DNA of 64,000 nt from Acidimicrobiales bacterium (GTDB lineage Bacteria > Actinomycetota > Acidimicrobiia > Acidimicrobiales > AC-14): NCBI GenBank assembly GCA_025463925.1, contig JAODBK010000014.1:62001-126000 (forward strand), in the 5' to 3' direction. The position numbers and the translations under genes are program-made. The notes beneath the pieces were generated by a model. That model did not search any database, had not been told where the DNA came from, and saw nothing but the letters and a program-made list of their open reading frames with translations. How positions within the stretch are numbered: the stretch's first letter is position 1; each line of letters begins with the position of its first letter. Below are positions 3,882 through 16,540 of this stretch, one piece after another.

Positions 3882-4543
3882 GGTCTGGGGATCGGGATCC
3901 CGAACTTCGGCGTGATGAAGACGATCTCGGCTTCGGCCAGCAGGTCGGCTCCGTCGTGGCACGTCCCCCAGCACCAGATCTTGCGGCCCTCGGCCTTGGT
4001 GACGCCGGCGCGGTAGTCGAGCGTCCGGTTGAGCGGCGTCGGCTTGATGTACCGGATGGTGAACGTTCCGGTGTAGCCGGCGGTGCCCGACAGTGTCTGG
4101 GCGAAGCCGAGCAGGTCGTCGAACGCGGCGGCGACGAACCCGCCGTGCAGGCATCCGGGCGGCCCCTCGTAGGCGTCGGTGTAGACGGCCGAGCCGCGCA
4201 CCTCCTGGCCCTCGAACCACATCTGCAGCGGCGCGGCCAGCGGGTTGGACCGCCCGGTGATGCCGCTGCGCTCGAGCAGCGCGGCATCGTCGCCGCCGGC
4301 CAACGCCAACCCGCCCTTCTCCTTCAGCGACGGATGGGCCGCGAGTCGGTCGGCCAGCGCCGCCGCCTGCGCACCGATCGAGGCCAGTTCGTCGTCGTCC
4401 ATCCGGTGCACGTCGAGCAGCGCGACGGACTCGATCATCCGCTTCACCTCCTTGGTGAGGCGGTGCTTCCGGGCGCGGGGGCCGTCTTCCGGCGGATCGC
4501 CAGTGGTGTAGACCTCGTGCGCGTTCCTCGGGAGCTCGGCCAC
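3878..4543 (-). CDS. PaaI-type hotdog thioesterase
   Basis: A 221-aa protein with the 4HBT hotdog fold typical of PaaI-like acyl-CoA thioesterases. The C-terminal half shows the family signature: GPPGCLHGGFVAAAFDDLLG (HGG-x-A-x3-D), then YTGTFTIRYIKPTPL and GRKIWCWGTC. The GTG start at 4543 overlaps the TAG of the upstream ligase (TAGTG). This start keeps about 35 coding-like residues ahead of the internal Met at 4438 (MIESVALLD), the alternative start. It probably releases CoA from ligase products or dead-end thioesters in the same operon. Confidence 0.85.
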   Translation of the reverse strand: MAELPRNAHEVYTTGDPPEDGPRARKHRLTKEVKRMIESVALLDVHRMDDDELASIGAQAAALADRLAAHPSLKEKGGLALAGGDDAALLERSGITGRSNPLAAPLQMWFEGQEVRGSAVYTDAYEGPPGCLHGGFVAAAFDDLLGFAQTLSGTAGYTGTFTIRYIKPTPLNRTLDYRAGVTKAEGRKIWCWGTCHDGADLLAEAEIVFITPKFGIPIPRP

Positions 4544-6093
4544 TAGATGGCGCGCTCGCGCCCCTCCCAGTACGGATCGCGCAGCTTCCGCTTGTACAGC
4601 TTGCCGTTCGGGTCTCGCGGCATCTCGGCGATGAAGTCGATGGACTTCGGCGTCTTGAACTTCGCCAGCTTGTCGGCGCAGAACCGAAGGATCTCGTCGG
4701 CCAGCGCGGGCGTCGCTTCGACGCCGGCGGCCGGCTCGATCACCGCCTTCACCTCTTCGCCCCAGTCGTCGTGGGGGATGCCGAACGCCGCGGCGTCGCC
4801 GACCTTCGGATGGGTGAGCAGCACGCTCTCGATCTCGGCCGGGTAGATGTTGGCGCCGCCCGAGATGATCATGTCGGCCTTGCGGTCGCAGAGGAAGAGG
4901 TAGCCGTCCTCGTCGATGTAGCCGATGTCGCCGACGGTGAAGAACTTGCCGATGCGGTTCTTCTCCGTCTTCTCCTTGTCCTTGTAGTACTCGAAGTTGC
5001 CGGTCTGCATGGACATGTAGACGGTGCCGATCTCGCCGGGCTCGTCGATCTGGTTGCCCGCGTCGTCGAAGATCGCGATCTCGGAGATGGCCCACGCGGT
5101 GCCGACGGTGCCGGGCTTCTTCAGCCAGTCCTCGGCGAACACGATGGTTCCGCCGCCTTCCGACGCCGCGTAGTACTCGTCGATGACGTTGCCCCACCAC
5201 TCGATCATCCGGCGCTTCACCTCGGGCGGGCACGGCGCGGCGGCGTGGACCATGTGGCGCAGCGACGAGACGTCGTACTTCGCCTTCACCTCGTCGGGCA
5301 GCGCCAGCAGCCGGTGGAACTGCGTCGGCACCATGTGGCTCGACGTGACCCCGTACTTCTCGATCAGCGCGAGCATCTCCTCGGGCGTCCACTTGTCCAT
5401 GAGGACGAGCGTGTGCCCGAGCGCCAGCGCGCCACCCGCGAAGACGGTGACCGCGGTGTGGTACAGCGGCGAGCCGCAGATGTGCACGTTGCCGTCGAGC
5501 GGCTGCAGCCGGAACATCAGCAGCATGCCGCCGAGGCCGGCGCCCATCTGCTCGGGCTCGATGCCGGGCAGGGGGCGCCGCACGCCCTTGGGCTGACCGG
5601 TGGTCCCCGAGGTGTAGTTCATCACCAGCCCGACGGTGCGATCCTCGGGCATCGAGTCGGGCTGGCCGTCCTTGAGCTCGTCGAACGAGCGGAAGCCCGG
5701 AACGGTGCCGACCGCGAACCGCGCCTCCTTGGGGAAGTCCAGCTCGTCGGCCGCGGCCGCGCAGACGTCGGCGAACCGCTCGTGCCCGACGAGGACCTTG
5801 GCCTCCGAGTCGTGCACGATGTACGCGATCTCGGGACCGACGAGATGATGGTTGATGGGCACCAGGTACCAACCGGCCTGGAGGACGGCGAGGTAGAGCT
5901 CGACGTACTCGGCGTCGTTCGGCAGGACGCAGGCCACGACGTCGCCCTGCTCCAGCCCGAGGGCCCGGAGGCCGTGCACGAGCTTGTTGGACTCGGCCAG
6001 CAAGCTGCCGGCGTCGACCTCCTTCCCGTCCGGCGTCACCAGCGCGAGGGAGTCGGGGTCTGCCTGTGCCAGTGCCCAGAAGCCGAGATCCAT
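4543..6093 (-). CDS. AMP-forming acyl-CoA synthetase (FadD family)
   Basis: A 516-aa ligase. The phosphate loop YTSGTTGQPKG, the A5-type region YYAASEGGG, the hinge region GDIGYIDEDGYLFLCDRKAD and the C-terminal lysine motif DPNGKLYKRKLRDPYWEGR are all present, so it should be active. The tail resembles bile-acid or steroid-acid CoA ligases, but I cannot name the substrate. The ATG at 6093 is preferred because residues upstream of it in the longer frame do not look like the family. It heads a leftward operon with the thioesterase and small membrane protein, and is divergent from a Zn-alcohol dehydrogenase across a KstR-like dyad. Confidence 0.88.
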   Translation of the reverse strand: MDLGFWALAQADPDSLALVTPDGKEVDAGSLLAESNKLVHGLRALGLEQGDVVACVLPNDAEYVELYLAVLQAGWYLVPINHHLVGPEIAYIVHDSEAKVLVGHERFADVCAAAADELDFPKEARFAVGTVPGFRSFDELKDGQPDSMPEDRTVGLVMNYTSGTTGQPKGVRRPLPGIEPEQMGAGLGGMLLMFRLQPLDGNVHICGSPLYHTAVTVFAGGALALGHTLVLMDKWTPEEMLALIEKYGVTSSHMVPTQFHRLLALPDEVKAKYDVSSLRHMVHAAAPCPPEVKRRMIEWWGNVIDEYYAASEGGGTIVFAEDWLKKPGTVGTAWAISEIAIFDDAGNQIDEPGEIGTVYMSMQTGNFEYYKDKEKTEKNRIGKFFTVGDIGYIDEDGYLFLCDRKADMIISGGANIYPAEIESVLLTHPKVGDAAAFGIPHDDWGEEVKAVIEPAAGVEATPALADEILRFCADKLAKFKTPKSIDFIAEMPRDPNGKLYKRKLRDPYWEGRERAI

Positions 6094-6128
6094 GGCGGCG
6101 GAGCCTATCCGTGGTTGCGAGGCCATAC

Positions 6129-6142
6129 GAGAACGTGTTCTC
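6129..6142. promoter_or_regulatory. KstR-like palindrome in a divergent promoter
   Basis: GAGAACGTGTTCTC is a perfect 6-bp inverted repeat around GT, containing the AACnnGTT core. The outer positions are G/C instead of the consensus T/A but remain symmetric. It lies in the 77-bp gap between the ligase (start 6093) and the alcohol dehydrogenase (start 6171) and could control both. Confidence 0.6.
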
Positions 6143-6170
6143 ATACGCGGCGAGCCCAGAAGGGGGAAAC

Positions 6171-7247
6171 ATGCAAGCTGCAGTCCTGCGCGCCGTCGGC
6201 GACGAAGAGCTCGAGATCGTCAAGGACATCGACCCGATCGGCCCCGGCCCCGGTGAGGTCCGCGTCCGCATCATGGCCAGTGGCGTCTGCCACTCCGACC
6301 TGTCCGGGATGAACGGCACGATCCCGGTCGGGATCCCCGCCGTCCTCGGCCACGAGGGCGCCGGCGAGGTGGTGGGCGTCGGCGAGGGCGTCACCAGCGT
6401 GGCGCCGGGCGACCACGTGATCATCAGCTGGATGCCGCCGTGCGGCACGTGCGCCGACTGCCTGCGCGGTCAGCCCCAGCTCTGCAGCCTCGGCTTCATC
6501 AGCAGCGCCAACCACAAGTTCACGTGCGGCGACGAGCGGCTGTTCGCGTTCGCCGGCACCGGCACGTTCGCCGAGGAGATCGTCGTCAGCCACCAGGCGG
6601 CGGTGAAGATCCCCGACGACGTGCCGTGGGACGTGGCGTCGCTGATCGGCTGCGGCGTCACCACCGGCGTCGGCGCGGCCATCAACACCGCGCAGGTCCG
6701 GCCCGGCTCCTCCGTCGTCGTGTTCGGCGCCGGCGGCGTCGGCATCAGCGTGATCCAGGGCGCCCGCATCGCCGGCGCGGCCGAGATCGTCGCCGTCGAC
6801 CTCGCGCCGGCCAAGCACGACCTGGCCAAGCGCTTCGGCGCGACGCACGCGGTCACCCCCGACCAGCTCGGCGACGTGATGATGGAGATCACCGGCGGCC
6901 AGGGCTTCGACTACGGCTTCGAGGCGATCGGCAAGCCGGTCACGATGCGCGCCGCGTTCGACGCCACCCGCCGCGGCGGCACGACGACCATCGTCGGCGT
7001 CGGTCGCTTCGACGAGACGATCGAGTTCAACGCGTTCGAGCTCTTCTACGCCGAGAAGAACTTCCGCGGCTCGATGTACGGATCGGCCGACGTCCGCACC
7101 GACTTCCACCGGCTGTTGCGCCTGTGGCGCACCGGCCGGCTGGATCTCGAGGGCATGATCTCCGTGCGCTCGGGGCTCGACGGCATCAACGAGGCGTTCC
7201 GGGCCATGAAGTCCGGCGAGGTCATCCGCACCGTCATCGAGTTCTGA
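6171..7247 (+). CDS. Zn-dependent medium-chain alcohol dehydrogenase
   Basis: A 358-aa MDR oxidoreductase. The catalytic zinc site (GVCHSDL, GHEGAG) and the four structural-zinc cysteines (CGTCADCLRGQPQLC) are intact. The Rossmann signature GAGGVGISVIQGARIAG follows at about 182. The sequence style is that of the class III/NDMA-dependent ADH branch of actinobacteria. It probably oxidises a terminal or ring hydroxyl. The ATG at 6171 follows AAGGGGG. A paralogue lies at 45038-46141. Confidence 0.88.
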   Translation: MQAAVLRAVGDEELEIVKDIDPIGPGPGEVRVRIMASGVCHSDLSGMNGTIPVGIPAVLGHEGAGEVVGVGEGVTSVAPGDHVIISWMPPCGTCADCLRGQPQLCSLGFISSANHKFTCGDERLFAFAGTGTFAEEIVVSHQAAVKIPDDVPWDVASLIGCGVTTGVGAAINTAQVRPGSSVVVFGAGGVGISVIQGARIAGAAEIVAVDLAPAKHDLAKRFGATHAVTPDQLGDVMMEITGGQGFDYGFEAIGKPVTMRAAFDATRRGGTTTIVGVGRFDETIEFNAFELFYAEKNFRGSMYGSADVRTDFHRLLRLWRTGRLDLEGMISVRSGLDGINEAFRAMKSGEVIRTVIEF

Positions 7248-7266
7248 CGAGCTGACGCCGCGGTCA

Positions 7267-7272
7267 TAGGCT
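7267..7272 (+). promoter_or_regulatory. Candidate -10 for a leaderless transcript (TAGGCT)
   Basis: TAGGCT lies 7 nt before the ATG at 7280 and no ribosome site is visible. The spacing would put the transcript 5' end at or next to the start codon. Confidence 0.45.
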
Positions 7273-7279
7273 CCGGCGC

Positions 7280-8488
7280 ATGAGCGCGCTGGCTGACTTC
7301 CCGATCGTCGACGGCGATGGCCATGTGATGGAGCCGGACAATCTCTGGCTCGACCGCATGGACAAGCAGCGGTGGGGCGACTGGATCCCGTACCGCGCCA
7401 TGGTCGACGGGAAGTACGAGACGACGTTCGTCGGCGGCGAGGTGCGGGGCGGCGGTCGGGCGTTCATCGAGGAGGTCTGCGCGAAGACGGGCATCACGCC
7501 CGAGCAGTACCACGAGATGTTGGCCGGGCTGCGCGTCGCCGGCGGCCACGACCCGGTCGCCCGGCTGGCCGACATGGACCGCGACGGCATCGACGCTGCG
7601 GTCCTCTACGCGAGCCAGGCGTTGTTCTTCGGCCCGGTCAGCCCGATCGCGTCGCTGCGCGACGTCGAGTTCGTGCACGCGTGCCAGCGGGCGTACAACG
7701 AGTGGATCGCCGAGTACTGCTCGGCCGATCCCCGCCGGTTGTTCGCCATGGGCGCGGTCCCGTTGCAGGACGTCGACCGCGCGGTCGCCGAGGTGACGCA
7801 CTGCGTCAGCGAGCTGGGCCACAAAGGCGTGTTCGTGCGGCCCTCGGCGTACATCGACGAGCTGCCGCTGAACCACCCGGTGTACGACCCGTTCTGGGCG
7901 GCCTGCCAGGACCTCGACGCCGCGGTGGCGTTCCACCCTGGCACGTACGCCGACACGCCGGGCGCGTGCAAGTTCTTCCGGCTCGTCTCCGACAGCCCGA
8001 ACATCATGGCGTCGTCGATGGCGATGGACGAGATCCACGGCGGGGCCGCGCTCGGTCAGGCGGTCGGCAACACCGTCGACATGATCGTGACGATGGGCCG
8101 CGTCGTGATGGGCGGGGTCTGCGAGCGCTTCCCGCGGCTGCGCTTCCTGTTCCTCGAGGCCGGGGGCGGGTGGATCCCGACGCAGGTCGAGCGCATGGAC
8201 GAGCAGGTCAAGGCGTTCCCGCTCGAGCGCCGCTGGCTGTCGCACCTGCCGTCGGAGTACTTCGCACGCCAGTGCTACGCCGGGTTCGAGGCCGAGGAGT
8301 GGAACATCGCGGCATCGGCCGAGTTCCTCGGCACCGACCGGGTGCTCTGGGCCAGCGACTACCCGCACCCCGAGTTCCACCCCGACGTGGTCAAGGAGCT
8401 GATGAAGGGCATCGCGCCGTTGCCGGAGTCCGACCAGGCTCGGGTCGCCGGCGCCAACGCGGTCGCCGCCTACCGGCTCCAACTCTGA
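7280..8488 (+). CDS. Amidohydrolase-2 family metal-dependent hydrolase/decarboxylase
   Basis: A 402-aa TIM-barrel protein of the ACMSD-like amidohydrolase family. The first metal motif is at the N-terminus (IVDGDGHVMEP) and the last near the C-terminus (LWASDYPHPEF, with the metal-binding Asp). The family hydrolyses C-C/C-N bonds or decarboxylates, usually with one zinc. It is more distant from the amidohydrolases at 29301 and 39723 than they are from each other. It stands downstream of the alcohol dehydrogenase and ends before a strong hairpin. The substrate is unknown. Confidence 0.82.
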   Translation: MSALADFPIVDGDGHVMEPDNLWLDRMDKQRWGDWIPYRAMVDGKYETTFVGGEVRGGGRAFIEEVCAKTGITPEQYHEMLAGLRVAGGHDPVARLADMDRDGIDAAVLYASQALFFGPVSPIASLRDVEFVHACQRAYNEWIAEYCSADPRRLFAMGAVPLQDVDRAVAEVTHCVSELGHKGVFVRPSAYIDELPLNHPVYDPFWAACQDLDAAVAFHPGTYADTPGACKFFRLVSDSPNIMASSMAMDEIHGGAALGQAVGNTVDMIVTMGRVVMGGVCERFPRLRFLFLEAGGGWIPTQVERMDEQVKAFPLERRWLSHLPSEYFARQCYAGFEAEEWNIAASAEFLGTDRVLWASDYPHPEFHPDVVKELMKGIAPLPESDQARVAGANAVAAYRLQL

Positions 8489-8515
8489 TCCCGCCACGCC
8501 ACCACGCCACCACGC

Positions 8516-8567
8516 CGGTTCTGTCCGCAGCTGCTGTCGCTCTGCGACAGCAGCGATGTCCAGAATC
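8516..8567. terminator. Strong hairpin between convergent genes (bidirectional terminator)
   Basis: GCTGCTGTCGC (8530-8540) and GCGACAGCAGC (8544-8554) form a perfect 11-bp stem with a TCT loop. Flanking GGTTCTG and CAGAATC extend the pairing imperfectly to about 52 bp. It lies between the convergent amidohydrolase and epimerase genes. A short CCACCACG-type direct repeat (about 8492-8513) precedes it. Confidence 0.7.
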
Positions 8568-9609
8568 AGGACGGGGAGGAGGGGGAGGGGGCGAGGGGGC
8601 CGACCTGCTTGGCGGTGAGGTGGCCGTCGGCGTGGAGCCAGCGGAGCATGTCGGCGACGGTGTCCCTGGTGGGGCGGAAGGTGACGCCGAGGTCCCGCTC
8701 GGTCGCGGACGAGTCACAGCGCACGCCGGTGGTGAGCGTGACCATGCCCTCGTGGGTGATCGGCTGGTTGATGCCGATGCGGGCCAGCGCGTCGCCGACC
8801 AGGCCCATGCCCCGCATGACGGCGACCGGCGCCGGCGGCAGCGGGAAGCGCCGGCCGGTCAGCGACCGCAGGATGTCGGCCAGCTCGCGAAGCGGCAGGA
8901 GCCGCCCGCCCACCAGGTACCGGCGCGGGCCCCGGCCGGGCTCGAGCACCCGCGCATGCACGTCGGCCACGTCACGCACGTCGACCGCCGGGAAGCCGCC
9001 GGAGGTGCCGGGCAGCACGCCGGCCTTCATGAACAGCACGACCGACGCCACGCCGTCGGTCATCGACGGGTCGTAGGGGCCCCACACGCCGCCGGGGTAC
9101 GTGATCGTCACCGGCGCGCCGTCGGCTTGCAGTGATCGCGCGTACGTCTCGGCGTCGGACTTCGACTTGGCGTAGCCCACGTTCGCCGGTGCGACCGGGG
9201 AGTCGGGCGTGAGCGTGGGGCCGCCCGGCACGAACAGCGCCGACACACTCGAGACGTAGACCACCGGGTCGAGCCCGGCCGCGACCGCGGCGCCCAGTAC
9301 CGCCTGCGTGCCGCCGACGTTCACCGCGTAGGCCTCGTCGGCGCGCTTGCGGTCCATTGCGACCAGCGCCGCGGTGTGCACCGCGGCGTCGCAGCCGTCG
9401 ACCGCGGCCTCGACCGCCCGCTCGTCGGTGACGTCGCCGATCGCGACATCGACCCGCTCGCCGGGCACGTCGACGCCGAGCCTGCTCAGGACGCGCGCCG
9501 CCTTGTCGGCGTCCCGCGCGAGCAGGCGGACGTCGTGACCGGCGCCGACGATCGCCGCGGTCGAGTGCGAGCCGACGAAGCCGGTGGCGCCGGTGACGAG
9601 GACCCGCAC
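8566..9609 (-). CDS. NAD-dependent epimerase/3beta-HSD-like extended SDR
   Basis: A 347-aa extended short-chain dehydrogenase. The NAD(P) motif TGATGFVGS is at residues 7-15. YAKSK (the YxxxK pair) follows NVGGTQAVLGA and VYVSSVSALF, as in 3beta-hydroxysteroid dehydrogenase/dihydroflavonol reductase relatives. It could reduce or oxidise a hydroxyl on a ring metabolite. GTG at 9609 begins one base after the stop of the degenerate adenylation protein. It is the last gene of a four-gene leftward operon. Confidence 0.82.
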   Translation of the reverse strand: MRVLVTGATGFVGSHSTAAIVGAGHDVRLLARDADKAARVLSRLGVDVPGERVDVAIGDVTDERAVEAAVDGCDAAVHTAALVAMDRKRADEAYAVNVGGTQAVLGAAVAAGLDPVVYVSSVSALFVPGGPTLTPDSPVAPANVGYAKSKSDAETYARSLQADGAPVTITYPGGVWGPYDPSMTDGVASVVLFMKAGVLPGTSGGFPAVDVRDVADVHARVLEPGRGPRRYLVGGRLLPLRELADILRSLTGRRFPLPPAPVAVMRGMGLVGDALARIGINQPITHEGMVTLTTGVRCDSSATERDLGVTFRPTRDTVADMLRWLHADGHLTAKQVGPLAPSPSSPS

Positions 9610-9610
9610 G

Positions 9611-10279
9611 TCAGTCGCGTTCGAGGCCGGACGCGGCGACGTCGATGAGCGTCTGCTCGACCGACAACCGCTTGCTCCACCCCCAGAACCCCGGCGGTGG
9701 CGCGCCCTCCTTCGACGCCGCCACCAGCTCGAGGACCCGCGTGTGGGTGAGCTCCTCGGTCGTCCACGAGCCGTCGGGTCCCGGCTCCACGATGACCTCG
9801 GCGATCTCGTCGGGCCGGCCGGGCACCTGGAACGGATCGGGTGGGTGCTTCAGCTCGAGCGCCTTCCACCACACGACGTCGGGCGCGTCGCCGACGACGC
9901 GCGCCGGGACCTTCGTCGCGTTCCACGCCTCCAGTCCCTCGCTGCACGCGATGACGAGCTTCGGCGCGGTGAGCCGCAACACACCGGCCAGGTCGTCGGT
10001 GGCGGCGGCCGGTGGCAGCACCACCGAGATCGCGCCGGCCTTCTGCACACCGACGTACGCGACCATCAGGTCACCGGGGTGGTTCTCGCAACAGAGCAGC
10101 GCGACCCGCTGACCGGGCTCGATGCCCATGGCGACCAGCGCCCGCCCGAGCCGGTTGCTGCGCTTGTCGAGGGTGCCGAACGTCAGCCGCTCGCCGCGCT
10201 CCATCTCGACCGCGACCGTCTCCGGCGCGGCCGCCGCCTGCGCCGTGACCAGCTCGCCGAGCAGGTGGCCCGTCGTCAT
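9611..10279 (-). CDS. Degenerate N-terminal half of an acyl-CoA ligase (AMP-binding-like)
   Basis: A 222-aa protein that aligns by eye with the first 200 or so residues of AMP-forming ligases (LTFGTLDKRSNRLGRALVAMG, AGAISVVLPPAAATDDLAGVL). It then stops: there is no large second subdomain, no A5-A8 motif and no C-terminal lid. Where ligases have TSGTTG-x-PKG this one reads EPGPDGSWTTEELTHTRVLE, so the ATP loop is lost too. The frame is intact. The ATG overlaps the upstream stop (ATGA) and the next start is 1 base away, so it is translated in a tight operon. It is either a decaying gene still in frame or a repurposed acyl-binding or regulatory subunit. Confidence 0.75.
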   Translation of the reverse strand: MTTGHLLGELVTAQAAAAPETVAVEMERGERLTFGTLDKRSNRLGRALVAMGIEPGQRVALLCCENHPGDLMVAYVGVQKAGAISVVLPPAAATDDLAGVLRLTAPKLVIACSEGLEAWNATKVPARVVGDAPDVVWWKALELKHPPDPFQVPGRPDEIAEVIVEPGPDGSWTTEELTHTRVLELVAASKEGAPPPGFWGWSKRLSVEQTLIDVAASGLERD

Positions 10280-10854
10280 CCCGGGCGATGGTACCGGTCG
10301 ACCACCACGTGCTCCCTGGTGATCACCCGCCAGCCCTTCGGCCGGTTGATGAATCGCCGGACGTCCTCGCCGACGATGCGACGGCCCTCCTCGGAGTCGT
10401 ACATCCGCTCGTTCAGGTCCTCCATCGACCAGAACGACAGCTCGGCGATGCCGTCGAACTCGCCGGCGTCGCCGACGGTGTCGACCAGCGGTTCGACGAT
10501 GACGTTCTGGCAGTAGCGGACGATGGCCGGATGGTGGATCTTGGCCAGCGGCCCGTGCACCTCGCGCCAGTGGCGCGCGAACTCGGCTCGGTCGAGGCCC
10601 TCGGCTCGCTGGATGAAGGAGATCCGCTTGACGCCGGGCGACGGCTCGCCGGCCGGCCACGTGCGCTCGTAGTCCCATTGCCGCGTCGGCTCGACGTGCC
10701 AAGCCTGGACGACGCCGTCGAGTTGCCGCGCCGCGTCGTCGTCGACCTCGGCCATGGTGAGCCAGGGGCCCTCCTCGAGCGGCTCGTTGTCCGTCCAGGC
10801 CCGCGCGCCGGCGACGGGTGACAGTCGCGCGCCCGACACCATGACGACGTTCAT
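10276..10854 (-). CDS. EthD-domain protein
   Basis: A 192-aa protein. The C-terminal half carries an EthD-type dimeric alpha/beta barrel (KRISFIQRAEGLDRAEFARH, then WREVHGPLAKIHHPAIVRYC), seen in small decarboxylases, dehydratases and P450-associated proteins. The N-terminal half may be a degenerate second copy. ATG at 10854 overlaps the SDR stop (ATGA) and its own stop overlaps the next start, so the three are tightly coupled. The function is unknown; a ring-modifying lyase/isomerase role is plausible. Confidence 0.75.
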   Translation of the reverse strand: MNVVMVSGARLSPVAGARAWTDNEPLEEGPWLTMAEVDDDAARQLDGVVQAWHVEPTRQWDYERTWPAGEPSPGVKRISFIQRAEGLDRAEFARHWREVHGPLAKIHHPAIVRYCQNVIVEPLVDTVGDAGEFDGIAELSFWSMEDLNERMYDSEEGRRIVGEDVRRFINRPKGWRVITREHVVVDRYHRPG

Positions 10855-11615
10855 CCCAGGGTGAGCGCTCGCACCGCGGAGGAGCCGCCGTCGACCGGAA
10901 GGGTGACGCCGCTGATCGTCTCTGCTTGGCGCGACGCGAGGAACACCACCGCGTACGCCACGTCGGTCGCGGTGGTCAGGCGGGTGAGGTGCTGGGCTTC
11001 GAGCCGGGCCATGCGGTCCGGCGTGGACCCGGCGTCGCGCCGCTCGTGGAGGATGTAGCCGGGCTGGACCGTGTTGCAGCGGACGCCCTGCCGCGCGAAG
11101 TCCATGGTGATCGATCGCGACAGGCCGTTGAGCCCGGCCTTGGCGGCGGCGTACGCGGCCAGGCCGGGGCTGGCCCGCTCGGCGGCTCGCGACGACACGT
11201 TGACGATCGCGCCGTGGCCCGCGGCGAGCATGTCGGGGATCACCAGCCGGCACATCGTCGCCGCCGCCACCAGGTCCAGCCGCAGCACCGCCTCGAAGTC
11301 GGCCGCGGTGACGTCGGTGACGGGGCCATCGTGCACGCCGTCGCCGATGACCGCGTTGTTCACCAGCACGGTGACCGGCCCGAACCGCTCGGCGGCCGCG
11401 TCGACGAGTGCGTCGCACTCCCGCTCGACGGTGAGGTCGGCGGCGATGAACGCGCTGCCGTCGATGCTGGCCGCGACCGCCTCGCCGCGCTCGCGGTGCC
11501 GCCCGGTGACGACCACCGACGCGCCCTCGCTCGCCATCAGCCGGGCGATCTCGCGGCCGAGGCCGGCGGTCGATCCGGTGACGATCGCGACCTCTCCCTC
11601 CAGGCGGCCGGTCAC
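10851..11615 (-). CDS. Short-chain dehydrogenase/reductase (SDR)
   Basis: A 254-aa classical SDR: TGSTAGLGREIA for NAD(P), VLVNNAVIGDG, catalytic Ser in VNVSSRAAE, AYAAAKAG as YxxxK, and a VDGGSSAV tail. I chose GTG at 11615 because TAGCAT lies 7 nt upstream (leaderless pattern). The longer frame would overlap the divergent promoter. It heads the operon SDR-EthD-adenylation half-protein-epimerase. The likely role is hydroxyl/ketone interconversion on a CoA or ring intermediate. Confidence 0.83.
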   Translation of the reverse strand: MTGRLEGEVAIVTGSTAGLGREIARLMASEGASVVVTGRHRERGEAVAASIDGSAFIAADLTVERECDALVDAAAERFGPVTVLVNNAVIGDGVHDGPVTDVTAADFEAVLRLDLVAAATMCRLVIPDMLAAGHGAIVNVSSRAAERASPGLAAYAAAKAGLNGLSRSITMDFARQGVRCNTVQPGYILHERRDAGSTPDRMARLEAQHLTRLTTATDVAYAVVFLASRQAETISGVTLPVDGGSSAVRALTLG

Positions 11616-11622
11616 GGGGCGG

Positions 11623-11628
11623 ATGCTA
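11623..11628 (-). promoter_or_regulatory. Candidate -10 (TAGCAT), leaderless SDR transcript
   Basis: On the minus strand TAGCAT is 7 nt before the GTG at 11615. No Shine-Dalgarno sequence is present in between. Confidence 0.45.
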
Positions 11629-11686
11629 ACGTCTGACGCCCTTTCAGAAGAGCGGGCGTTCGATGGGAGCACGAGGAGCAACGTCG

Positions 11687-12592
11687 TTGGGGAACTACCT
11701 GCAGGGCAAGTCGATCGTGGTCACGGGCGCGGGCAGCGGCATCGGCCGCGCCGTGGCGATCGCCTGCGCGGCCGAGGGCGCCAGTGTCGTGGTGGCGGAC
11801 TACGGCGTGGGCATCGCCGGCGAGGATCCGACGAGCGAGGTGGCCGACGCGGTCGTCGAGGAGATCACCGGCGCCGGCGGCACCGCGATCGCCGTCGCCG
11901 ACACCGTCACGTCGATGGCGGGCGGCGCCCGCATGGTGCAGGCCGCGGTCGACAAGTTCGGGAAGATCGACGGCGTCGTCTGCGTCGCCGGCATCCTGCG
12001 CGAGCGGATGTTCTTCAACATGGCCGAGAACGAGTTCGATCCCGTGGTGGAGACGCACCTGAAGGGCCACTTCACCGTCATGCGGGCCGCGGCGCCGTTC
12101 ATGAAGGAGCAGAAGTCGGGGGCCATGGTCGCGTTCACGTCCGGCGCGTACGCCGGCAGCGTCGCCCAGGCCAACTACTCGGCGGCCAAGGGCGGCATCG
12201 TCTCGCTGGCTCGCAGCGTCGCCGCCGGCATGCACCGCTACGGCGTGACGGCCAACGTGATCGCGCCGGTCGCCCGCACCCGCATGTCGATGAACGTGCC
12301 GACCGAGCTCGACATGGGCGAGCCCGAGGACGTGGCGCCGCTCGTCGTCTTCCTGCTGAGCGACCAGGCGACGCACATCACCGGCCAGGTCTACACCGCC
12401 AACGGCGGCAAGATCGCGGTGTGGAACCAGCCGGTCGAGGTCCGCGAGATGGCGAAGGACGGGCGTTGGACGCCCGAGGAGATCGAGGCGCGCATCGACG
12501 GCGAGGTCGGCCAGGAGAAGATGGGCCTCATCGAGCGGCTCGACCAGATGAAGGCGGCGGCGGACGCGAACGCCCAGCCCAACAAGAAGTAG
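11687..12592 (+). CDS. SDR of the Hsd4/multifunctional-enzyme dehydrogenase type
   Basis: A 301-aa SDR of the D-3-hydroxyacyl-CoA dehydrogenase (Hsd4A/17beta-HSD4) type: TGAGSGIGRAVAIACAAEGA, the loop insert DYGVGIAGEDPTSE, NYSAAKGG as YxxxK, and a long tail (GKIAVWNQPVEVREMAKDGR) seen in steroid side-chain dehydrogenases. It should oxidise a 3-hydroxyacyl-CoA. I prefer TTG at 11687 because GAGGAG sits 8 nt upstream and the protein then starts like its relatives. An in-frame ATG at 11663 would add eight residues. It opens the rightward operon that continues with FadE30 and IpdF. Confidence 0.83.
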   Translation: MGNYLQGKSIVVTGAGSGIGRAVAIACAAEGASVVVADYGVGIAGEDPTSEVADAVVEEITGAGGTAIAVADTVTSMAGGARMVQAAVDKFGKIDGVVCVAGILRERMFFNMAENEFDPVVETHLKGHFTVMRAAAPFMKEQKSGAMVAFTSGAYAGSVAQANYSAAKGGIVSLARSVAAGMHRYGVTANVIAPVARTRMSMNVPTELDMGEPEDVAPLVVFLLSDQATHITGQVYTANGGKIAVWNQPVEVREMAKDGRWTPEEIEARIDGEVGQEKMGLIERLDQMKAAADANAQPNKK

Positions 12593-12597
12593 CGCGC

Positions 12598-13752
12598 TTG
12601 GACTTCCGGGAGTCGGCCGAGGAGCAGTCGTTCCGGGTCGAAGCCCGCGAATGGCTCGGCGACCACCTCGTCGGTGAGTTCGCGGACGCGCGCGGCCTGG
12701 GCGGCCTCGGGCGCGAGCACGAGGGCTTCGACGTCCGGCTGGCGTGGGAGCAGCTGCTGGGCAAGGCCGGGTGGACGTGCCTCGGCTGGCCGGCCGGGCA
12801 CGGCGGCCGGGGCGCCACCGTCGCCGAGCAGGTGATCTGGGCCGAGGAGTACACCCGCGCGCAGGCGCCGGCCCGGGTCAACCACATCGCCGAGCAGTTG
12901 CTCGGTCCGACGATCATCGCGTTCGGCACGCCGCAGCAGCAGCGCCGGTTCCTGCCGCCGATCGTGCGGGCCGAGGAGCTGTGGTGCCAGGGCTACTCGG
13001 AGCCCGACGCCGGGTCCGACCTCGCCAACGTCAAGACGCGGGCGGTGCTGGACGGCGACGAGTGGGTGGTCACCGGGCAGAAGGTGTGGACGTCACTGGC
13101 GCCGTGGGCCCAGTGGTGCTTCGTCGTGTGCCGCACCAACGCGGGCGCGGCGAAGCACAAGGGCCTGTCGTATCTCCTGGTGCCGATGGACCAACCCGGC
13201 ATCGAGATCCGCCCGATCGAGCAGATGACCGGCGGCTCGGAGTTCAACGAGGTGTTCTTCGACGGCGCCCGCACCGCGCGCGAGCACGTCGTCGGCGAGG
13301 TCGACGACGGGTGGCGCGTCGCCATGGGGACACTCGGGTTCGAGCGCGGCGTGTCGACGCTCGCCAACCAGATCGGGTACGAGGCCGAGTTCGCCACCGT
13401 GCTGGCGCTGGCCCGCCGCACCGGGAAGTCCCGCGACCCGGTGCTGCGCCAGCGGTTGGCCGACGCGTGGATCGGGCTGCGCCTGATCCGGCTCAACGCG
13501 CTGCGCACGATGAGCACCGAGACGCCGGGACCGGAGGCGTCGATCGGCAAGCTGCAGTGGGCCTCGTGGCACCGCAGCTTCGGCGAGTTGGCGGTCGACG
13601 TCGCCGGCGCCGACATCGACCGGCCGGAGCACGACGACCTCCGCACCATCTTCCTGTTCTCGCGTGCCGACACGATCTACGGCGGGTCGAACCAGATCCA
13701 GCGCAACGTCATCGGTGAGCGAGTGCTCGGCCTGCCGAAGGAGCCGGCGTGA
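12598..13752 (+). CDS. fadE30: FadE30-like acyl-CoA dehydrogenase (HIP-CoA dehydrogenase)
   Basis: A 384-aa acyl-CoA dehydrogenase. Long stretches match my recollection of mycobacterial FadE30, for example GLGGLGREHE, FGTPQQQRRFLPPI, LWCQGYSEPDAGSDLA, TGQKVWTSLAPWAQWCFV and IYGGSNQIQRNVIGERVLGL. The putative catalytic base is the Glu in GFERGVST. FadE30 dehydrogenates HIP-CoA, the two-ring product of steroid degradation. The start is an in-frame TTG at 12598, five bases after the SDR stop. The next gene is IpdF, its neighbour in M. tuberculosis too (Rv3560c/Rv3559c), overlapping by GTGA. Confidence 0.9.
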   Translation: MDFRESAEEQSFRVEAREWLGDHLVGEFADARGLGGLGREHEGFDVRLAWEQLLGKAGWTCLGWPAGHGGRGATVAEQVIWAEEYTRAQAPARVNHIAEQLLGPTIIAFGTPQQQRRFLPPIVRAEELWCQGYSEPDAGSDLANVKTRAVLDGDEWVVTGQKVWTSLAPWAQWCFVVCRTNAGAAKHKGLSYLLVPMDQPGIEIRPIEQMTGGSEFNEVFFDGARTAREHVVGEVDDGWRVAMGTLGFERGVSTLANQIGYEAEFATVLALARRTGKSRDPVLRQRLADAWIGLRLIRLNALRTMSTETPGPEASIGKLQWASWHRSFGELAVDVAGADIDRPEHDDLRTIFLFSRADTIYGGSNQIQRNVIGERVLGLPKEPA

Positions 13753-14528
13753 CCGCGGGGCCGACGGGCCCGCCGGGCCCGCCGGCGTACGTGCCGGGCC
13801 ACGGGCTGCTGGCCGGCAAGCGGGTGCTCGTCACCGCGGCCGCCGGAACCGGGATCGGCTTCGCGACCGCGCAGCGGGCCGTCGAGGAGGGCGCGTCCGT
13901 CGTCATCAGCGACAAGCACGAGACGCGCCTCGCCGAATCGGCGAGCCGCCTGGGAGTGCCGGGCATCCCATGCGACGTCACCGACGAGGCCAGCGTGTCG
14001 TCGCTGTTCGCGTCGGTCGCCGCCGACGGCCCGATCGACGTGCTCGTCAACAACGCCGGACTCGGCGGCACCGCCGAGGTCGTCGACATGACCGACGAGC
14101 AGTGGTCCACGGTGCTCGACGTCACCCTCAACGGCACCTTCCGCTGCACCCGCGCCGGGCTGCGCCACATGGTGCCGCGCGGCAAGGGTGTGATCGTCAA
14201 CAACGCGTCGGTGATCGGGTGGCGGGCCCAGGCCGGCCAGGCGCACTACGCCGCGGCGAAGGCCGGCGTCATGGCGCTCACGCGGTGCGCCGCCATCGAG
14301 GCGGCGCCCCACGGCGTTCGCATCAACGCGGTCGCGCCCAGCCTCGCCATGCACCCGTTCCTGTCGAAGGTGACGACCGACGAGCTGCTCGACGAGCTGA
14401 CCCGGCGCGAGGCGTTCGGCCGGGCCGCCGAGCCGTGGGAGGTCGCCAACGTCATCGTGTTCCTCGCCAGCGACTACTCGTCGTACATGACCGGCGAGGT
14501 CGTCTCGGTCTCCAGCCAGCATCCGTGA
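13749..14528 (+). CDS. ipdF: IpdF-like hydroxy-HIC-CoA dehydrogenase (SDR)
   Basis: A 259-aa SDR closely resembling IpdF (Rv3559c): the unusual nucleotide loop VTAAAGTGIGFATA, VVISDKHETRL, VLVNNAGLGGTAEVVDMTD, NNASVIGWRAQ, HYAAAKAGVMALTRC and the ending VVSVSSQHP. IpdF oxidises the ring hydroxyl of a HIP-derived CoA thioester before ring opening. The GTG start overlaps the FadE30 stop. The N-terminus has an extra Gly/Pro-rich stretch (GPTGPPGPPAYVPGH). The downstream MaoC-like gene overlaps by 4 bp. Confidence 0.92.
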   Translation: MTAGPTGPPGPPAYVPGHGLLAGKRVLVTAAAGTGIGFATAQRAVEEGASVVISDKHETRLAESASRLGVPGIPCDVTDEASVSSLFASVAADGPIDVLVNNAGLGGTAEVVDMTDEQWSTVLDVTLNGTFRCTRAGLRHMVPRGKGVIVNNASVIGWRAQAGQAHYAAAKAGVMALTRCAAIEAAPHGVRINAVAPSLAMHPFLSKVTTDELLDELTRREAFGRAAEPWEVANVIVFLASDYSSYMTGEVVSVSSQHP

Positions 14529-14914
14529 GGATCATCGACGGGCTCGACGAGCTGACCGCCGCGGTCGGCGCCGATCTCGGCGCCACCGATTGGGTCGACG
14601 TCGACCAGTCGAGCATCGACCGGTTCTGCGACGCCGCCGGTGACGCGACGTTCTTCGCGGTCGCGCTGACCAACGGGCTGATGCCGCAGTTGCTCGACGT
14701 GCGCGGCGTCGCGATGGGCGTCAACTACGGCACGAATCGCATCGCCCTAGGCGCGCCGGTGACCGCGGGATCGCGGGTGCGGGCCGCGGCGGTGATCGCG
14801 GCGTGCGAGCAGGTGAAGGGCGGCGTGCAGGCGACGGTCCGCATCACCGTCGAGGTCGACGGCCGCGACGAGCCGGCGTGCGTGGTGGAGGCGCTGAGCC
14901 GCTACGTCGCCTGA
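14525..14914 (+). CDS. MaoC-like hotdog protein lacking the hydratase catalytic segment
   Basis: A 129-aa protein with MaoC/R-hydratase features on both sides of a gap: GLDELTAAVGADLGATDWVD at the start, then MGVNYGTNRIALGAPVTAGS and VVEALSRYVA at the end. In normal family members a segment of about 20 residues with the catalytic Asp and His (pattern H-x-D-P-x..GPFG-x-TIAHG) follows AGD. Here DAAGDAT runs directly into FFAVALTNGLMPQLL, so those residues are absent. The frame is intact and coupled (GTGA) to ipdF. It may be a non-catalytic partner subunit or an in-frame deletion product. Its 3' end overlaps the convergent SDR by 13 bp. Confidence 0.8.
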   Translation: MRIIDGLDELTAAVGADLGATDWVDVDQSSIDRFCDAAGDATFFAVALTNGLMPQLLDVRGVAMGVNYGTNRIALGAPVTAGSRVRAAAVIAACEQVKGGVQATVRITVEVDGRDEPACVVEALSRYVA

Positions 14915-15681
14915 TCGCCGGTGTTGGCGGCGTCGAGGTACGACGGCTTCTCGCCGCCGCCGTGGACGACGATCTCGGCGCCGCTCACGTAGCTCGCGAG
15001 TGGCGACGCGAGGAAGAGGCACACGTCGCCGATGTCCTCGGGCTCGGCCAGCCGGCCGAGCGGCACCGTGGCGCCGACCGCTGCGATCCCCGCCTCGTCG
15101 CCGTAGTAGAGGTGCGACTGCTCGGTGCGGACCATGCCGGCGGTCACCGCGTTGACGCGGACCTTCGGCGCCCACTCGACCGCGAGGGTCTGGGTGAGGT
15201 TGAGCAGCCCGGCCTTGGCCGCGCCGTAGGCGGCCGAGTTCGGCGAAGGCCGCCGGCCGCTGACGCTGGCGATGTTGACGATGCTGCCGCCGTCGGTTTG
15301 CGCCTGCATCACCGCATTTGCCCGTTGCGCCATCACGAGCGGCGCCACCAGATTGAGCGTGATGATCGCGGCCGAGAACTTCGGCGAGACGGTTGCCGAG
15401 TCGGCCGGCGGTGAGCCGCCGGCGTTGTTGACCAGCACGTCGAGCCGGCCGTGGCGCTCGACGCAGGTGGCCACGACCCGTTCGGCGTCGTCGGGGTCAC
15501 GGACGTCGGCGGCCACGAACGACATGTGGTCGGGCAGCGACGCCTCGGGCTCGTGGCGGGCGCAGACCACGACCCACGCGCCAGCCACCCGGAAGCGTTC
15601 GGCGATCCCGCGGCCGACCCCCTTCGTCCCACCGGTGACGATGACGGCGCGTCCGCTGAGATCGAGCGGGTCGTCGGCCAC
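14902..15681 (-). CDS. SDR beside echA20 (Rv3549c-type)
   Basis: A 259-aa classical SDR: VTGGTKGVGRGIAERF, VLVNNAGGSPPADSA, NIASVSGRRPSPNSAAYGAA with YGAAK as YxxxK. It is divergent from echA20, as is Rv3549c in M. tuberculosis, and of the same length if started at the GTG at 15681. That start has TACGTT 7 nt upstream (leaderless pattern). A TTG at 15690 is the alternative. It probably acts on a ring-opened CoA intermediate; the exact step is not assigned. Confidence 0.83.
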   Translation of the reverse strand: MADDPLDLSGRAVIVTGGTKGVGRGIAERFRVAGAWVVVCARHEPEASLPDHMSFVAADVRDPDDAERVVATCVERHGRLDVLVNNAGGSPPADSATVSPKFSAAIITLNLVAPLVMAQRANAVMQAQTDGGSIVNIASVSGRRPSPNSAAYGAAKAGLLNLTQTLAVEWAPKVRVNAVTAGMVRTEQSHLYYGDEAGIAAVGATVPLGRLAEPEDIGDVCLFLASPLASYVSGAEIVVHGGGEKPSYLDAANTGDQAT

Positions 15682-15688
15682 GGGCGTC

Positions 15689-15694
15689 AACGTA
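15689..15694 (-). promoter_or_regulatory. Candidate -10 (TACGTT) for the SDR
   Basis: Minus-strand TACGTT is 7 nt before the GTG at 15681, and its position favours that start over the TTG at 15690, which it overlaps. Confidence 0.4.
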
Positions 15695-15702
15695 GCGCCG
15701 CT

Positions 15703-15756
15703 CGGTTTCTGCCTCCCGCGACCGGCCGGTGAGGCCGGCCAATGGAGGCAGAACCG
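15703..15756. repeat. 54-bp imperfect palindrome in the SDR/echA20 divergent promoter
   Basis: The left arm CGGTTTCTGCCTCC (15703-15716) pairs with GGAGGCAGAACCG (15744-15756) with one bulged T. An inner GGCCGG/CCGGCC stem (15724-15729, 15735-15740) closes on TGAGG. It lies between the two divergent start codons and upstream of the echA20 -10. Operator, attenuator or interspersed repeat are all possible. Confidence 0.5.
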
Positions 15757-15763
15757 TGGCGGC

Positions 15764-15769
15764 TAGCCT
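15764..15769 (+). promoter_or_regulatory. Candidate -10 (TAGCCT) for echA20
   Basis: TAGCCT lies 9 nt before the ATG at 15779, with no ribosome site in between, which suggests a leaderless ipd operon transcript. Confidence 0.45.
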
Positions 15770-15778
15770 CATCGCCCC

Positions 15779-16540
15779 ATGGGCATCACCAGCCACGTCG
15801 TCGACGGCATCGCCGAAGTCGTGATGGACAACCCGCCGGTGAACGCGTTGACGGTGGCCGGGTGGTTCGAGTTGGCCGACGTGATCCGCCGGGCCGGCGA
15901 CGACCAGGCGGTGCGGGCCGTGGTGCTCCGGGCCGAGGGCCGGGGGTTCAACGCCGGCGTCGACATCAAGGAGATGCAGGCGACCGAGGGCTTCACCGCG
16001 CTGGTCGGTGCCAATCGCGGCTGCTACGCAGCGTTCGCCGCGGTCTACGAGTGCGCGGTGCCGGTGATCGCCGCGGTCAACGGCTACTGCTTGGGCGGCG
16101 GCATCGGCCTGGTCGGCAACGCCGACATCATCGTCGCCGCCGACGACGCGACCTTCGGCCTGCCCGAGGTCGACCGGGGCGCGCTCGGCGCCGCGACCCA
16201 CCTGGCGCGGTTGGTCCCGCAGCACAAGATGCGGGCGATGGTGTTCACCGCGGAGTCGGCCACCGCGCAGGAGCTGCACCACTTCGGCTCGATCCATCAG
16301 GTCGTCCCGGTCGAGGAGTTGCGGGCCGCGGCGTTCGCGATCGCACGGAACATCGCGGCCAAGAGCGGCATCGTCATCCGGGCCGCCAAGGAGTCGCTGA
16401 ACGGCATCGATCCCGTCGACGTGAAGCGCTCCTACCGGTTCGAGCAGGGCTTCACCTTCGAGCTCAACCTCACCGGCGTCAGCGACGTCGCCCGCGACGC
16501 GTTCGTCGAGAAGCGGGAGGCCGACTTCGATGGCCGATAA
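15779..16540 (+). CDS. echA20: EchA20-like ring-opening hydrolase (crotonase fold)
   Basis: A 253-aa crotonase-fold protein very close to M. tuberculosis EchA20: LRAEGRGFNAGVDIKEMQ, TEGFTALVGANRGCYAAF, YECAVPVIAAVNGYCLGGGI, FGLPEVDRGALGAATHLARL and YRFEQGFTFELNL. EchA20 hydrolyses a HIP-derived diketo-CoA and opens ring D to give COCHEA-CoA. The first hydratase glutamate is absent (GGGIGL), as in EchA20, while the second (LPEV) is kept. It starts the operon echA20-ipdA-ipdB-ipdC-phosphotransferase, and its 3' end overlaps ipdA by 11 bp. Confidence 0.94.
   Translation: MGITSHVVDGIAEVVMDNPPVNALTVAGWFELADVIRRAGDDQAVRAVVLRAEGRGFNAGVDIKEMQATEGFTALVGANRGCYAAFAAVYECAVPVIAAVNGYCLGGGIGLVGNADIIVAADDATFGLPEVDRGALGAATHLARLVPQHKMRAMVFTAESATAQELHHFGSIHQVVPVEELRAAAFAIARNIAAKSGIVIRAAKESLNGIDPVDVKRSYRFEQGFTFELNLTGVSDVARDAFVEKREADFDGR

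Follow-up and report, generated by a model that had tools for sequence, protein, structure and literature searches.

What keeps half of an adenylating enzyme open and in frame inside a row of overlapping genes? The question arises from a 64,000-nucleotide stretch of an Acidimicrobiales genome (the window). On its minus strand, at 9611..10279, lies a gene that encodes a stand-alone protein, which we identify by its Pfam AMP-binding (PF00501) match and its AlphaFold model as an N-terminal subdomain of the ANL superfamily. We call it the half gene. An initial annotation had described the protein as an in-frame half of an adenylating enzyme with a ruined P-loop, encoded with a four-base overlap upstream and a one-base gap downstream. 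All of these observations are borne out by our analysis.

The frame runs from 10279 to 9611 through 222 codons and a stop without any internal stop. At its upstream end the minus strand reads CCG GGA TGA CG, so that the stop of an EthD-domain gene (10276..10851, minus strand) and the ATG of the half gene share the four bases ATGA. At its downstream end the minus strand reads GAC TGA C GTG, and a single base separates the half gene from the GTG start of an NAD-dependent epimerase/3beta-HSD-like gene (8566..9609, minus strand, 347 aa). The G+C content at the three codon positions is 0.74/0.50/0.94 in the half gene, which is typical when compared to EthD (0.72/0.45/0.93) and the epimerase (0.75/0.54/0.96). 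The conserved core and the tail of the half gene are equally coding-like in this respect. The DNA is rich in G+C and the opposite strand is free of stops over the same stretch as well. Hence, the open frame by itself is weak evidence. A ligase remnant that decays slowly could also stay open by chance since stops are rare in G+C-rich DNA, and the open opposite strand counts in favor of such a remnant. The case for the half gene rests on homologues, codon pattern and conservation instead.

Residues 13–142 of the half protein match profile positions 3–140 of PF00501 (E 1.3e-19). This profile has 384 positions, and hence the half protein corresponds to the N-terminal part only. By pairwise score the nearest full-length proteins are three ligases of the same order (L012, L013 and L026; 517–545 aa), with 35% identity over residues 9–186. 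Homology to the nearest ligases continues via PFQV...EIAEVI up to the P-loop (A3, [ST]SG[ST]TGxPK), which is absent from the half protein at the aligned position. Here, the full-length ligases carry TSGTTGRPKYV. Residues 165–176 of the half protein (EPGPDGSWTTEE) fall on TSGTTGRPKYVG of L012 and L013, which means that the P-loop was lost at the homologous position. The A4–A8 motifs and the C-terminal domain with the catalytic lysine are missing from the half protein, which ends at residue 222 and has no match to PF13193 (AMP-binding_C). From the absence of the P-loop and the later catalytic motifs it follows that proteins of this kind should be unable to adenylate acids.

The rest of the ligase is not hidden behind the stop. 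No ligase remnant was found 3' of the half gene in any frame, and where alignments run past the stop, they extend only briefly and no further than expected by chance. A frameshift or an assembly error that conceals the rest of the ligase was rejected on this ground. The missing remnant, together with a codon-position pattern that is intact even in the tail, also speaks against slow decay.

What is left of the enzyme is predicted to be a proper domain. AlphaFold models the 222-aa half protein with a pLDDT of 85.7 and a pTM of 0.86. A relative of only 139 aa (from genome G149, see below) is modeled by itself as a compact alpha/beta domain (pLDDT 88.9, pTM 0.82). For both models the best Foldseek matches are ANL N-terminal domains. 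The retained core of about 145 residues is thus predicted to fold independently into a compact alpha/beta structure. In sequence and predicted fold the half protein resembles the N-terminal subdomain of the ANL superfamily (acyl-CoA synthetases, NRPS adenylation domains and luciferases). It differs from this superfamily in that it stops before or at the P-loop, lacks everything that follows and has a CCxxH...WWKxxEL signature.

Is the half protein alone in this state? We found four relatives, all short (about 105–263 aa) and all without a P-loop, which brings the family to five members. The member from a sister genus (G001) is 263 aa long and 47–49% identical to the half protein; its P-loop is deleted and the next beta-alpha segment is kept (LHAVPLSTRLG...VQAPFDPTTF). 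A second copy in the window's own genome (G000:C90:21976-22299; L002:1498-1812, L019:9884-10300) is flanked by a TetR gene on one side and an ABC permease on the other. It is about 105–138 aa long and 50% identical, and its first ~35 residues are missing. This copy (L002) shows neither a clear start nor a clear ribosome-binding site and is possibly a remnant. The last two members come from two other families of the order. One is about 210 aa long and has a good GGAGGA site ahead of its GTG start (G236). The other is the 139-aa protein of G149, which stops right after WWKxxEL, as does the second copy of the window's genome. Every member ends differently.

The family is sparse. The G236 and G149 members were found in a sample of 397 genomes of the order, the G001 member and the second copy in searches of the own genome and family, and altogether about 400 genomes of the order contain the family in four cases. 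A second draw of 297 genomes from the order added no new member. Samples of the class (395 genomes) and of the phylum (396 genomes) held no members except in the window's own genome. No genome of the same genus turned up in the family search. A search of genome contigs returned two full-length proteins only, and viral contigs contained no members. Most of the matches listed for plasmid records carry an NRPS annotation; the top match is a large NRPS-like frame whose P-loop is intact. In the literature on short or non-catalytic ANL proteins and on EthD clusters we found nothing relevant and no functional record.

The short proteins are clearly set apart from the ligases. A profile built from the five members recovers each of them with E ≤ 1e-44, while in runs with this profile full-length ligases score no better than 1e-20. 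In a maximum likelihood tree of 26 rows (five short proteins and 21 full-length ligases, aligned up to the P-loop only) the short proteins form one side of a branch with a support of 99/98. Judged by this tree, the short proteins make up one family of single origin, separate from full-length ligases. The three ligases closest to the half protein also lack the residues that are specific to the family.

Selection was estimated for the core, which comprises residues 1–143 (9851..10279, minus strand) and contains CCxxH (63–67), ACxEG (111–115), GDxP (130–133) and WWKxLEL (137–143). NG86 gave dN/dS values of 0.4–0.9. We set these values aside because the extreme G+C content at third positions hides saturation, and replaced NG86 by a codon model with position-specific base frequencies. 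For the core of the window and G001 genes, pairwise codon ML yields a dN of 0.35 and an omega of about 0.004 (LRT 63 against omega = 1), where synonymous sites are saturated and omega is to be read as a bound and not as a value. The tail (9614..9850, minus strand), which includes the ruined P-loop and the helix after it, behaves differently: alignment identity between the window and G001 tails is 0.31 compared to 0.30 for shuffles, no better than chance. Since the omega of the core is far below 1 and the tails are at shuffle level, constraint acts on the core and spares the tail. The family is under purifying selection. Some of this constraint might stem from the time before truncation, but this would require that the proteins were truncated independently, and the single clade argues against it.

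These results bear on decay. The tails vary among members, as they would under independent erosion, the family is thinly scattered across the order, and the second copy in the window's genome looks eroded. These points fit a decaying remnant. A remnant does not explain a core dN/dS between genera that is far below 1, nor five short proteins that form one clade and share derived residues absent from ligases, nor a half gene that is kept at the orthologous cluster of another genus. We consider decay improbable, and rejected a pseudogene as the main reading on the basis of codon ML, the single clade and synteny. The initial annotation had preferred repurposing over decay. In support of this preference, three other genomes encode short relatives that lack the P-loop, one of them within the orthologous cluster of the sister genus, and the core is under constraint. 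At the orthologous clusters that we examined there is no full-length ligase in the place of the half gene, and the relatives are short, with differing lengths.

If the protein does not adenylate, what is conserved in it? Eight residues (C63, C64, H67, C112, G115, D131, W137 and L143) are invariant in all five members and occur in 0–14% of the 21 ligases. In the predicted structure C63/C64/H67, C112 and D131 directly follow strands, and W137 opens the last helix. In folds of this type, binding and active sites usually lie at strand ends. The cysteine, histidine, aspartate and tryptophan residues may cluster in space, and their restriction to the family suggests that they form a new site and are not what is left of an acyl pocket. 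A D/E-x-H at the first strand-helix turn of the family recalls the DxH of cobalamin-binding flavodoxin-like domains, in which, however, the later motifs are spaced differently.

Such a site might make the half protein a small enzyme in itself, in which the invariant cysteines and histidine (CCxxH, ACxEG and the aspartate) would serve as nucleophile or as metal ligands, with a CoA thioester or an aldehyde as the substrate. The invariant residues include three cysteines, a histidine and an aspartate that lie just after strands and are rare or absent at these positions in ligases, which would suit this role. However, there is no activity or known family with such an arrangement, and we regard an enzyme of this kind as quite improbable. 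A wider proposal is that the family is a minimal four-strand alpha/beta domain derived from an acyl-CoA ligase. This domain would have gained a CCxxH/ACxEG/D/WW site (for a metal, a cofactor or covalent thioester binding) and would serve several unrelated catabolic clusters as a new type of small ligand-binding or catalytic protein. We give this proposal a small chance.

The surroundings of the half gene are catabolic. A cluster of a ligase, an ADH, an acyl-CoA dehydrogenase (ACAD), several SDRs, an ECH and EthD (window 4543–16540, and L017, L069 and L070) occurs in whole or in part in four genomes of the order, with a rearranged gene order. In the window it includes a complete acyl-CoA ligase with an AMP-binding and a C-terminal domain (4543..6144, minus strand), an SDR that is the upstream partner of EthD (10851..11651, minus strand; 66% identical to the SDR upstream of EthD in G034) and the ACAD (12593..13752, plus strand; assigned by Pfam on its orthologue beside EthD in G001). 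Orthologues in the G001 cluster are 79% identical for the ligase, 76% for the ADH, 70% for the ACAD, 80% and 72% for the SDRs and 82% for the ECH. As in the window, the half gene comes after EthD and shares its direction, and the ACAD is divergent. No homologue of the epimerase was found in the sister-genus region examined.

Since the cluster has its own complete ligase, a second adenylating activity is unnecessary. The complete ligase also weighs against the half protein being one half of a split adenylating enzyme, in which another protein provides the P-loop and the C-terminal domain. Split adenylation domains are reported from NRPS systems: in the corallorazine NRPS the adenylation domain is divided between open reading frames and the halves form one active domain (PMC11342130). 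The window's genome also contains a 371-aa frame whose PF00501 match does not begin until profile position 151 and which could be taken as a second half. Nevertheless, neither the window cluster nor the scanned surroundings of the other members yielded a partner with a P-loop and a C-terminal domain. Furthermore, the ends of the half proteins differ, and the edge of the P-loop, which a split enzyme would need, is missing from them. In contrast to the corallorazine halves, which are active jointly, the half gene of the window has no second half that we could find. We rejected the split enzyme for lack of a partner and consider it very improbable. The match in question (G000:C66:42277-42753) is a ligase-like sequence without the usual N-terminal part.

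The initial annotation had suggested a repurposed acyl-binding or allosteric subunit that may act together with EthD or SDR neighbors. In a more specific version, this subunit is a pseudoenzyme that would bind to the EthD protein (or the SDRs) and modulate it. The four-base overlap fits such a subunit. So does the order and direction of EthD and half gene, which are kept in the sister genus despite other reordering and an inverted SnoaL insertion. The two proteins also diverge alike between the two genomes (dN 0.35 for the half-gene core and 0.41 for EthD), and the catabolic enzymes of the same clusters evolve more slowly (dN 0.11–0.18). The window EthD is 51% identical to the EthD protein beside the half gene in G001. 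About 80 residues precede the EthD domain and are poorly conserved between genera, compared to 70–80% identity for the ACAD and SDRs of the cluster. The SnoaL-like gene of G001 (L017:9190-9608) is inverted and sits between EthD and the half gene.

However, EthD is linked to the half gene in the window's genome and in G001, not in all members. G034 and G014 have the EthD/ACAD/SDR cluster and lack the half gene. Because related EthD clusters do without it, the half gene is dispensable for the core of the pathway. Conversely, over about 9–11 kb around the G236 and G149 members and around the second copy in the window's genome, no homologue of the window EthD was found. The G236 member adjoins an HpaB-type monooxygenase, a flavin reductase and an alpha/beta hydrolase. 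The G149 member lies between two enoyl-CoA hydratases, ahead of a CoA-transferase-like frame. The second copy has ABC, TauD, amidohydrolase and ECH genes nearby in addition to the TetR gene. The catabolic cluster around this copy also encodes a DUF7700 protein (L019:16222-16731). The common element of the contexts is CoA-thioester or oxygenase-based catabolism and not EthD. Thus, the conserved arrangement stands and a general dependence on EthD does not. A tuning subunit of EthD or the SDRs is unlikely, and EthD as a direct partner at this locus is somewhat doubtful.

The reading we prefer, and hold at even chances as a whole, is that the half gene belongs to a small, hitherto unnamed family of stand-alone, non-adenylating domains, accessory to CoA-thioester catabolism and with a new binding or reactive site. 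Its parts differ in strength. Very probably the family is real, under selection and non-adenylating. That the protein has an accessory role, binding or reacting at the new Cys/His site, as read from the invariant residues, is plausible and falls just short of an even call. The family has five members, of which one is perhaps a remnant, and we infer its function.

Under the preferred reading the ancestor of the family would be the N-terminal (first flavodoxin-like) subdomain of an ANL acyl-CoA ligase. Loss of the P-loop and all later catalytic motifs would have abolished adenylation, and the core would have gained the invariant CC-x2-H, A-C-x-E/S-G, D and WW-x3-E-L where beta strands end. The product would be small and assist catabolic pathways that work on CoA thioesters or use oxygenases. 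It may bind a ligand, a metal or a pathway intermediate, or react with it via its cysteines and histidine. At the window locus it would be translated in step with EthD, and acid activation would be left to the complete ligase of the cluster. A possible parallel is chain T2 of 7tgh (333 aa, ANL-derived; also in 8b6f, 8bqs, 8gym and 8gzu), which matches the half protein in sequence and is likewise a shortened ANL chain kept as part of something else. We take these structures to be ciliate respiratory supercomplexes, and chain T2 is presumably a eukaryotic, structural protein.

Shortened enzymes are commonly dismissed as annotation debris. Here, several lineages retain the front subdomain of a very common enzyme fold as an independent protein, which has acquired a new invariant motif and is clearly under purifying selection. 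The family is small enough for direct tests and illustrates concretely how a catalytic fold can be reduced to a small domain fit for reuse.
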